Under the pieces are notes generated by a model. The model saw only the letters and a program-made list of their open reading frames with translations, was not told the origin of the DNA and did no database searches. A DNA stretch of 12,746 nt from Methanomassiliicoccales archaeon (GTDB lineage Archaea; Thermoplasmatota; Thermoplasmata; Methanomassiliicoccales; UBA472). The translations under genes were made by a program, and so were the position numbers. The stretch's first letter is position 1. Every line of letters starts with the position of its first letter. Below, in pieces: positions 4,772 to 7,323 of the stretch. The stretch is from NCBI GenBank assembly GCA_013329565.1, contig DUJZ01000160.1:1-12746 (forward strand), in the 5' to 3' direction.

Positions 4772-5875
4772 TCATCTGATCTCCTTCCAGGGGAACCTGC
4801 TCTTGATCGCCGATATCACGCGCATGTCCCTGGCCAGCCTGTCGCTGAGCACCGATCCGTCCGGAACCCTCACCCGCACCTTCTCGTTCCTGTAATCGTC
4901 GACGGTCTTGCCCATCCACTCCCCCTTTATCCGTATCCCGGTGCCCTTCAGCGTCAAGGAGGTGTGCAATATGCTCAGGTCGTACAGCAGCTCGGTCATG
5001 AGCCAAGGGTCGTAGGAGATGGTCGTGGGAACCTCGTACGGATAGCTGATCAGGAGCGAGGGCACCTTGTGGGCATTGGCGTGCGCTCGCGTCTTATCGT
5101 CATTGGTAAGGAACAGCACGTCCACGCGTTGCTCGAACATCTCTGCCGCCACGGAACGAAGCATTTCGTCGTCCCTTGCCTCCTTGTCATCCACGAAGGA
5201 GCCGCCCTGCGCAGACCAGCAGTTGTAGCGCTGCTTCAGCGCCACCACCTCCGCCTGTCCGTTCAATGCCTTCCGTCCGTTCTTGTTGAGGCAGTTGAAC
5301 AGGTCGTCAGCGACGGTGCGGTCCCGCACGGCCCTTCTCAGTTCCTCAACGTCCCTACGGTCGTACTTCCTGCCGACCCGGCGGGACAGCTCCTCCTCGG
5401 CCATGGACGGTATCAGCACCTGCACCTTCTGCGGATCGAACGACCGGACGTTGCATCCTTTGCCCGCCAGAAGCAGCCTGGAGAACAGCCTGCGGTACAG
5501 AAGGTTGGTGTCAATCCCGAGGCACATCTGGCGCGGGAAGCGGTACGGGTCGCCGCGCCTCTCGTTGAAACGGTATATCTCGGCCATCAGGGCGTCCAGG
5601 TTGGTCGGCGGCATGAACAGGGAGGCTTGCAAAGCTTCGCGCAGGTCCAAGAACGTGGGGATATCCCTGGCCAGCTGCTCCCCCAGGGCGCTGGCGATCC
5701 TCCCGTGCGCCTCATCGTATTCCCCTTCCCTGGCAACCCACTGCACTTCTTGATGGTCCAGGTCCAGGGCCAACAGGTCAACGTCGAGCAGGTCCGAGCG
5801 CACGATGAGATTGCCTTTGCCGGCCATTCTGGATTCGTTGAGCACGACGGTGATGAACTCCTTGTCCACCTCCAT
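4772..5875 (-). CDS. PIN-domain nuclease-like protein coupled to a CARF-like gene
   Basis: The 367-residue protein has an N-terminal region of about 115 residues that I do not recognise, then a PIN-type nuclease core. The expected acidic residues are visible: D122 in CLGIDTNLLYRRL, E160-162 in PSMAEEELSRR, acidic residues at 229-236 (DDKEARDDE) and D259/D260 in FLTNDDKTRAHANAHKVPSLL, the classic last PIN strand. About 100 residues follow, with no named domain. PIN domains cut RNA with a metal ion held by these acids. At 367 residues it is far longer than a VapC toxin (about 130), and no antitoxin-like gene is adjacent. The ATG overlaps the upstream stop (TGATG), with a full GGAGGTG site 6 bases before it, so translation is coupled to the CARF-like gene. 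The pair therefore probably acts together as sensor and RNase. The gene ends in TGA immediately followed by TAG. Confidence 0.75.
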   Translation of the reverse strand: MEVDKEFITVVLNESRMAGKGNLIVRSDLLDVDLLALDLDHQEVQWVAREGEYDEAHGRIASALGEQLARDIPTFLDLREALQASLFMPPTNLDALMAEIYRFNERRGDPYRFPRQMCLGIDTNLLYRRLFSRLLLAGKGCNVRSFDPQKVQVLIPSMAEEELSRRVGRKYDRRDVEELRRAVRDRTVADDLFNCLNKNGRKALNGQAEVVALKQRYNCWSAQGGSFVDDKEARDDEMLRSVAAEMFEQRVDVLFLTNDDKTRAHANAHKVPSLLISYPYEVPTTISYDPWLMTELLYDLSILHTSLTLKGTGIRIKGEWMGKTVDDYRNEKVRVRVPDGSVLSDRLARDMRVISAIKSRFPWKEIR

Positions 5876-6348
5876 CAGCGCACCTCCTTCAGGAGGTCAT
5901 GGGAGCTCTGGAGGTCTAAAGGGATCTCCAGATACGGCCGTGAGGCGTTCTGCAGCGATTCGATGTACAGATAGAAGATGTGATCGACCTTGACCTTGCC
6001 CGAGCCTATGACCGTGCCCAGCACGATGGCCTTGGTGCCCGGCGTCACGTCAACCGCCACCTCGCTGCCCTTGGCGTTCTCCGCGCCGATGATCTCGTTG
6101 ACCTTCCGCCCAATCTCCTTGATGTCATCTCCCGGGACGTCCACCAGCTCCACCTCTGCCGGGGAGCCGTGCTCCTTGAGCAGCACGACGAGCATGTCCT
6201 TGGCCATCTGGCCACGGGCGGTCTCGCAGCCCGCGGTCAACACGTAGACCTTGTCCGGAAGATAATCGAACTGGCGGATGTTGGACCAGACGGAGTTGAA
6301 CAGTCCCCAGACGCTCCGCCCCATCATGGTCAGCAGGACCTTGCCCAT
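5875..6348 (-). CDS. Stand-alone CARF-like (CRISPR-associated Rossmann fold) sensor protein
   Basis: The 157 residues form one alpha/beta domain with features I associate with CARF domains. These are a first strand and glycine turn (KVLLTMMGRSVWGLFNSVW), a second strand ending in a small-residue loop (DKVYVLTAG, then helix AKDMLVVLLKEHG), and the late motif VAVDVTPGTKAIVLG. TPGTK (residues 102-106) corresponds to the TGGTK ligand-binding motif of Card1/Csx1-type proteins. The last strand is VDHIFYLYIES. In type III CRISPR systems CARF domains bind cyclic oligoadenylates and switch on a fused effector. Here the effector (PIN) is a separate, overlapping gene. No cas gene or CRISPR array is in the window. 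It starts at ATG 6348, 39 bases after the HprK-like gene. Alternatively it is a Rossmann-type nucleotide sensor that is not a true CARF. Confidence 0.68.
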   Translation of the reverse strand: MGKVLLTMMGRSVWGLFNSVWSNIRQFDYLPDKVYVLTAGCETARGQMAKDMLVVLLKEHGSPAEVELVDVPGDDIKEIGRKVNEIIGAENAKGSEVAVDVTPGTKAIVLGTVIGSGKVKVDHIFYLYIESLQNASRPYLEIPLDLQSSHDLLKEVR

Positions 6349-6387: not shown

Positions 6388-7323
6388 CTATTTAATCAGC
6401 TCGACTATGGCCGCCTGCGTCTCCTGCGGGGTGGCGGTGGTATTGACCAGATGCACCCTGGCCTGGGCCAGGAACTGCCGGAAGAACTTTTCCCGCACCT
6501 TCATCTTCCTCTCGTCGCGCACCATCTGGTGGGGATTGCAGAGGTCGTTGGCCGACAGATATTCCCACGCCTCTTCAGGCGTTAGCTCCCTGACCAGCCG
6601 CTTGTCCTCTCTGTCCCGCTTCAGCATCACCACCTCGTGGATGGTGGTCATGGGAACCACGGAACCCCTCCCGGTGACCCATCGGACGTTGACGACAGCC
6701 CTCTGGCGGTTGTCGAACTTGGCCTTCTCGACGAGTCCACGGTATTCGTCCCAGATGGTCCCTATGTCCGCGTCGATGTAGCAGTTCTTCTCCGAGCCGA
6801 AGGCCACGGGGCGTCTTTCCGACGAACGAACGAAATACCAGTCGTCCGTCACCAGCCGGGCGTCCTTTGACCGTAGCAGACCCCAGGAATGAGTGGTCTT
6901 GCCGGTCTTGGAGGGAGCGATGAGGGTTATCCCCTTCCCATCGATGTCCAGGGCTGCGCCGTGAACGGAATGGATCTGATGCTCGTCCTCCAGTATATCG
7001 CCAGCGAGAGCCAGGGCGACGCTCTTTATCCATCCGTAATAATCGAAGTTGAAAAGGAAGGCGGTCTTCGTGTTGGGTTCGAACAACACTTCCAGAGGGC
7101 GCTCGGAATCCTCCAGGCATATCACTCGTCCATGGGAGCGCACCGTCTCCGACATGGAGTAGAAATTATCCTCCCACATGTCCTTGACCGAGCTGCTTAG
7201 CGTGTATAGTTTCACGCAGCAGCCGCTGATGTCCGCCTTGGCGGTGTGGAACGGGTACGAGGAATACTGTTCGTAAAGGAGGTCCTTCTCCTCGTACGAT
7301 ATCAGCCTGACCGGGTAGCTCAT
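6388..7323 (-). CDS. HPr kinase/PEP-carboxykinase-like P-loop protein of unknown role
   Basis: The 311-residue protein has the HprK-type core: HSVHGAALDIDGKGITLIAPSK begins at about residue 118, the Walker A is APSKTGKTTHSW (136-147), and an acidic Walker-B-like strand LVTDDWYFV follows (157-165). Bacterial HprK uses this fold to phosphorylate HPr of the sugar phosphotransferase system, but no such partner is present here. Relatives scattered through bacteria and archaea are mostly uncharacterised or act in peptide and coenzyme modification. The first 110 residues and the C-terminal 90 match nothing I know. The gene follows citramalate synthase by 15 bases and precedes the CARF-like gene by 39, so it could belong to either unit. 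The ATG at 7323 has no clear Shine-Dalgarno site. The fold call is fairly safe; the substrate is unknown. Confidence 0.7.
   Translation of the reverse strand: MSYPVRLISYEEKDLLYEQYSSYPFHTAKADISGCCVKLYTLSSSVKDMWEDNFYSMSETVRSHGRVICLEDSERPLEVLFEPNTKTAFLFNFDYYGWIKSVALALAGDILEDEHQIHSVHGAALDIDGKGITLIAPSKTGKTTHSWGLLRSKDARLVTDDWYFVRSSERRPVAFGSEKNCYIDADIGTIWDEYRGLVEKAKFDNRQRAVVNVRWVTGRGSVVPMTTIHEVVMLKRDREDKRLVRELTPEEAWEYLSANDLCNPHQMVRDERKMKVREKFFRQFLAQARVHLVNTTATPQETQAAIVELIK

Follow-up and report, generated by a model that had tools for sequence, protein, structure and literature searches.

The locus described here raises the question of why an archaeon keeps a CARF-type sensor and a nuclease as two overlapping genes with no CRISPR (clustered regularly interspaced short palindromic repeats) system beside them. 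CARF domains have mostly been studied as readers of cyclic oligoadenylates made by Cas10. The window, meaning the whole stretch of 12,746 nucleotides analysed from a Methanomassiliicoccales archaeon (GenBank assembly GCA_013329565.1, contig DUJZ01000160.1), holds a gene for a CARF protein that runs into a gene for a PIN nuclease. The two genes are read here, with moderate confidence, as encoding two subunits of one effector, a CARF-gated PIN-family RNase assembled in trans. CARF-PIN proteins as such are already known; the novelty lies in the division into two genes, in its conservation and in how scarce Cas10 is among the hosts. The features of the pair are as follows.

5875-6348, minus strand: CARF sensor gene, 157 amino acids (PADLOC profile CARF_m1--CARF, 2.1e-27; AlphaFold2 model; PDB matches)
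4772-5875, minus strand: PIN nuclease gene, 367 amino acids (Pfam PIN_4 above cut-off; AlphaFold2 model with a predicted local distance difference test score, pLDDT, of 90.7)
6031-6051, minus strand: CARF signature D100-V-T-P-G-T-K106, predicted ligand loop (read from the sequence; fits the CARF motif)
5875, minus strand: TGATG, CARF stop and PIN start with a one-base overlap (sequence and reading frame positions)
5881-5887, minus strand: GGAGGTG, a putative ribosome-binding site within the end of the CARF gene (read from the sequence)
5510-5512, minus strand: PIN acidic residue D122, invariant in 23 rows
5390-5392, minus strand: PIN acidic residue E162, invariant in 23 rows
5171-5173, minus strand: PIN acidic residue D235, invariant in 23 rows
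5099-5101, minus strand: PIN acidic residue D259, invariant in 23 rows

On the minus strand the CARF open reading frame (ORF) comes first and the PIN ORF second, with base 5875 common to both and five nucleotides between GGAGGTG and the PIN ATG. An earlier note, made from the letters of this DNA alone, had given the coordinates, strand and lengths of the two genes, the TGATG overlap with its GGAGGTG site and a TPGTK motif at residues 102-106, and all of these agree with the ORF positions; TPGTK is part of the longer signature listed above.

The smaller protein is a CARF protein by profile and by fold. The profile names of the CARF_m1 series reportedly go back to a census by Makarova in 2020. 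The AlphaFold2 model and comparison with PDB structures give a Rossmann-like CARF fold, as the earlier note had supposed when it named a different fold as the result that would count against it; residues 130-157 are poorly modelled. The sequence DVTPGTK at residues 100-106 fits the pattern [DN]X[ST]XXX[RK], given after strand 4 of CARF domains in PMC4012209. T102 and K106 are kept in at least 90% of 22 aligned rows, and the position of K106 reads lysine in 21 rows and arginine in one. At position 12, the polar serine or threonine site at the end of strand 1, the window protein has a serine, as have 12 of the 22 rows.

The larger protein likewise has the identity that had been proposed for it. 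It matches PADLOC CARF_m1--CARF_PIN (5.7e-11), its PIN fold is recognised both by Pfam and by PDB structures, VapC toxins among them, and comparison with the fused protein SiRe_0806 and with PIN structures divides it into a linker domain (residues 1 to about 110) and a PIN fold (about 113-285). The four acidic residues D122, E162, D235 and D259 are unchanged in all 23 aligned rows, so the loss in homologues that the note had named as a possible refutation is not seen.

The closest known system is SiRe_0806 of Sulfolobus islandicus, deposited as a PIN domain-containing protein (PDB 9jxw, apo; 9jxx, with cyclic tetra-adenylate, cA4). It consists of CARF, linker and PIN in that order, and fold and profile comparisons place both window proteins on it, so that the pair has homologous parts in the same order. 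SiRe_0806 is a single polypeptide whereas here there are two overlapping genes, identity is only 15-18%, and the cA4 ligand is that of SiRe_0806. In the same way CARF_m1--CARF and CARF_m1--CARF_PIN are the best profile matches of the two window proteins, and the fused PADLOC model runs across the two ORFs in order but needs two genes to be covered. Among 14 control genomes it matches Sulfolobus acidocaldarius only. The view that a PIN effector sets this pair apart from known CARF systems must therefore be given up, since fused CARF-PIN proteins have been described, while the CARF-like protein, the PIN acidic residues, the conserved neighbourhood and the lack of cas genes in the window stand. 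Neither the single-sequence PDB searches nor profile A2 gave a convincing relative. TAL-effector rows with profile A4 (2.6e-12, 1.8e-7 and 3.1e-7) are sums of numerous weak repeats without any stretch that passes, and these and haemagglutinin rows with profile A3 (0.029 upward) were set aside as spurious.

The split form is conserved well beyond the window. Relatives were sought in samples of 300 genomes of the class and 389 of the phylum, and those with names are Methanomassiliicoccales or Thermoplasmata archaea; from these names the class is taken to be Thermoplasmata and the phylum Thermoplasmatota. In the class the CARF query matches 57 genomes and the PIN profile 61, which include all 57. 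In 56 of these 57 genomes the PIN gene is downstream of CARF, with contig and strand shared, and in the remaining genome (G105) both lie near contig ends. Three of the four genomes with a PIN match only (G013, G030 and G255) have a divergent CARF gene directly upstream, and the fourth (G232) has a truncated PIN gene without CARF. Adjacency thus holds in 59 of 61 carriers in the class, which is the outcome of the co-occurrence survey that the earlier note had called for and is contrary to the scattered arrangement that would have spoken against it. In the phylum sample 37 genomes match; eight carriers are outside the class, and the locus fetched from each is split and adjacent. In 30 loci compared only a few bases separate the CARF stop from the PIN start, the exception being L009, where the first start found is 25 bases on.

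No fused CARF-PIN frame was found in the 35 of 44 fetched loci that hold both parts (some loci come from the same genome), and none of the 60 CARF matches in class genomes lies in an open frame longer than 254 amino acids. A protein search with profile A3 returned 43 proteins, all of 336-383 amino acids; scoring was confined to the 7997 candidates with the most words in common, and fused relatives may have escaped it. In the literature searched, a limited library, no paper on a split CARF-PIN pair or on SiRe_0806 was recognised, nor any account of a two-gene form across the phylum or of its separation from type III CRISPR; the 2020 CARF census lay outside that search and may mention the pair. 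Some irregular copies were also seen. One further partial CARF match (G150, contig C160) has no PIN gene beside it, and the truncated PIN copy in G232 (L107 2872-3708) is the sole one without CARF among the 61 carriers. Related PIN proteins at L149 1874-2989 (G019) and L150 1671-2759 (G006) have no CARF neighbour that could be found. Genome G071 has three CARF-PIN places (contigs C126, C68 and C168) with PIN matches in pieces or with stop codons, which could be several copies or assembly errors.

Both genes are under purifying selection. Compared with genomes of the same genus (G078, G172 and G220), the ratio of nonsynonymous to synonymous substitution rates (dN/dS) is 0.11-0.20 for CARF and 0.07-0.14 for PIN, and somewhat lower (0.04-0.10) for the neighbouring metabolic and kinase genes. 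The PADLOC scores, the conserved adjacency and dN/dS together show that both ORFs and their pairing exceed chance. Trees were made from 52 of the 69 carriers (61 and 8), with 11 family groups and 10 rows in no group. The groups cluster with 10 label changes, the minimum possible, in the PIN and CARF trees alike. Taken singly, 10 of the 11 fall on one side of a branch and f24, with two rows, does not; support for group f1 is modest (79/68 and 80/90), several branches are long, and the label of G107 was assigned within this analysis. The trees fit inheritance within families. The sample has eight genomes from the window's genus, its own genome counted among the eight, and two of them lack the pair. 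It has the appearance of an old module of the chromosome, though one that is often missing.

Few hosts have a recognisable Cas10 as a source of the signal. An ancillary effector of type III CRISPR would be expected beside cas genes in a genome with Cas10; the window genes scanned have no cas-type match, and in the genome of the window (83% complete) no Cas10 was found; some other carrier genomes are incomplete too. The Cas10 palm is matched in six of the 300 class genomes, three of 61 carriers (G013, G164 and G174) against three of 239 others (Fisher p 0.10). The other 58 carriers have no match; among the 38 carriers with completeness of 90% or more and contamination of 5% or less, 35 are without one. 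The model matched 5 of 14 control genomes; it is not strict, since E. coli, a control, was matched too, probably by way of a GGDEF protein. RAMP genes are present in 3 of the 57 carriers scanned (G079, G164 and G174; the four PIN-only genomes were outside the scan) and Cas1 in 17 of 61. A type III marker is detectable in at most 4 of 61 carriers, on other contigs than the pair or, in G013, where contig C1 bears both the pair and Cas10, about 400 kb away. According to PMC4012209, every CARF family includes genes that are unlinked to CRISPR-Cas.

Other makers of messengers were looked for as well. The mCpol model matches none of the 61 carriers, a weakly controlled result because no control genome passed its cut-off. 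The SMODS model for cGAS/DncV-like nucleotidyltransferases (CD-NTases) has 16 matches among the carriers at E 1e-3, four of them above cut-off; one of these four, of 447 amino acids (L122), looks like a CCA-adding enzyme of the archaeal kind, and a similar length is shared by most of the weaker rows. The cyclic di-AMP cyclase (DAC) is found in 22 of 61 carriers and in none of 15 in the window's order. None of Cas10, mCpol, SMODS and DAC is above cut-off in 35 of 61 carriers, or in 27 if all 16 SMODS rows are counted, and none of the four is found in the five other carriers of the window's genus (94-99% complete). At the cut-offs used, the survey of synthases proposed in the earlier note leaves most carriers without a recognised one. 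According to a 2026 survey (PMC12988326), Thermoplasmatota have a low prevalence of CRISPR-Cas and retain the cyclic oligonucleotide-based antiphage signalling system (CBASS), so CD-NTases missed by PF18144 are possible. Among the SMODS matches is a 260-amino-acid nucleotidyltransferase followed by a 251-amino-acid gene (L121 1471-3005, G011), which may be a real CD-NTase in a CBASS-like locus.

The computed basis for two subunits of one effector consists of both folds, the motif, the acidic residues, the homology to a fused protein, the gene coupling, purifying selection and the scarcity of Cas10. A nucleotide-type signal would bind the CARF sensor and switch on the PIN RNase in trans. The CARF subunit would probably dimerise around its ligand and contact the N-terminal linker domain of the PIN subunit, like the joined halves of SiRe_0806, and the gene overlap may keep the two subunits in step. 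In most hosts the signal would not come from a recognisable Cas10. The ligand could be a cyclic oligonucleotide that an unrecognised synthase makes, or a signal derived from RNA. RtcR is a precedent for a CARF that is not driven by oligoadenylates and acts with other proteins in trans (PMC9650030). It differs in controlling transcription, and most RtcR families are without the basic residue that is kept here after strand 4. Card1, Csm6, Csx1 and Can2 also couple a CARF sensor to a nuclease, but they are fused, have other nuclease folds and are driven by Cas10. We infer a complex, a ligand, the direction of the switch, an RNA target and an outcome in growth arrest or a stress response. Several points weigh against a CARF-gated RNase. 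Subunit contact, ligand and nuclease activity are putative; pLDDT falls below 50 over the 28 C-terminal residues of the CARF model, which probably lie near the partner; serine is lacking at position 12 in 10 of the 22 rows; and without a known messenger synthase the CARF protein might bind something else or nothing.

A small upstream gene that overlaps a PIN gene is the usual order in type II toxin-antitoxin systems, and the CARF protein could be an antitoxin that restrains the PIN RNase until ligand or loss of CARF frees the toxin, as in VapBC. The conserved overlap and the VapC toxins among the PIN matches favour this, but the partner here is CARF-type by Pfam and by model and has no known DNA-binding antitoxin fold. 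The PIN subunit is also far larger than VapC and has a linker domain, and over its length it aligns with the effector part of a CARF-PIN protein. Toxin-antitoxin function is further disfavoured by the trees and by the lack of relatives on plasmids (no tblastn match) and on viral contigs (51 pattern matches with query A2, none a relative), and is judged unlikely.

It is distinctly unlikely that the pair is an ordinary type III effector acting at a distance on cA4 from a Cas10 that was missed or recently lost. The structure of SiRe_0806 with cA4, the Cas10 of three carriers with RAMP genes in one more and the nominally higher frequency of Cas10 in carriers are in its favour, as is the statement in PMC12669027 that among CRISPR subtypes III-A is the commonest in Thermoplasmatota; the paper also lists PIN RNases among cyclic oligoadenylate effectors. 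Set against this are the 58 carriers without a Cas10 palm match, high-quality genomes included, from a model able to match controls, the RAMP and Cas1 counts given above and the distance of the few type III markers from the pair. The stand-alone ring nucleases Sso2081 and Sis0811 (Crn1) resemble the CARF protein in length and fold, and S12 of the window protein aligns with the active-site serine of Sso2081 in the profile match. The CARF protein might remove a messenger, with the PIN protein an independent RNase merely on the same transcript. Those ring nucleases have no nuclease partner gene. This explanation is considered very improbable: the serine occurs in only 12 of the 22 rows, both halves are present in order within a single fused protein, and in the class, apart from contig ends and the partial match, each CARF of the family that was found has a PIN neighbour.

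In the window's order the pair comes after amino-acid genes, which the earlier note had remarked on in the surroundings. Of 12 loci of this order that were looked at, 11 have an HPr kinase (HPrK)-like gene; LeuA-like and homoserine dehydrogenase genes are each present in 10, with the LeuA-like gene of L041 in a non-adjacent position. In the window the HPrK-like gene (6388-7323), with a weak match to the C-terminal domain of HPr kinase, is 39 bases upstream of CARF. Outside the order the neighbours differ. No window gene scanned has a cas-type match, and the location outside a CRISPR locus is supported for the window. A defence-island setting was considered and is not supported, given the amino-acid genes in this order and the few flanking genes tested in other families, which are of different kinds; the check covered 20 neighbouring or window genes, five from the window, with Pfam alone and no PADLOC screen of neighbours. 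One neighbour scanned bears a PLD-like domain.

In some lineages the pair is accompanied by genes that seem to combine CARF with a helix-turn-helix (HTH) domain. Four of five genomes of family f23 (G053, G097, G025 and G076, not G163) have CARF-HTH, CARF-HTH, CARF and PIN directly in succession. Related CARF-HTH-like genes are upstream of the pair in G302 and G311, also in G084 with one opposite-strand ORF between, and about 6 kb from it in G111; the window's genome (G000) has tandem genes of this kind on another contig (C90, L001 1267-2570). The profiles were built from G025, G084, G111 and the C90 genes, so the matches in G053, G097, G076, G302 and G311 are independent of them; flank lengths vary among loci. 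Loci listed for related CARF-HTH-like genes are L018, L019, L020, L021, L049, L141 and L143. This association suggests that the CARF-HTH regulators and the PIN nuclease read one signal.

The wider proposal is more speculative. It is possible, though doubtful, that Thermoplasmatota have an old nucleotide signalling independent of CRISPR, in which an unrecognised synthase or a product of RNA damage would give a ligand for the split CARF-PIN RNase and, in some lineages, for tandem CARF-HTH regulators in the same cluster. The module would then not be a stray part of CRISPR; rather, a fused form of it would have been adopted by type III CRISPR. Across the phylum the CARF and nuclease genes persist as a pair with their motifs intact, mostly where Cas10, mCpol, a cyclic di-AMP cyclase or a convincing CD-NTase is not found. 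This makes it a testable question which other signals are read by CARF proteins and what makes them. With sensor and nuclease on two polypeptides, activation of the enzyme can be assayed apart from binding of the ligand. How fused CARF effectors originated is a further question on which the split arrangement has a bearing.
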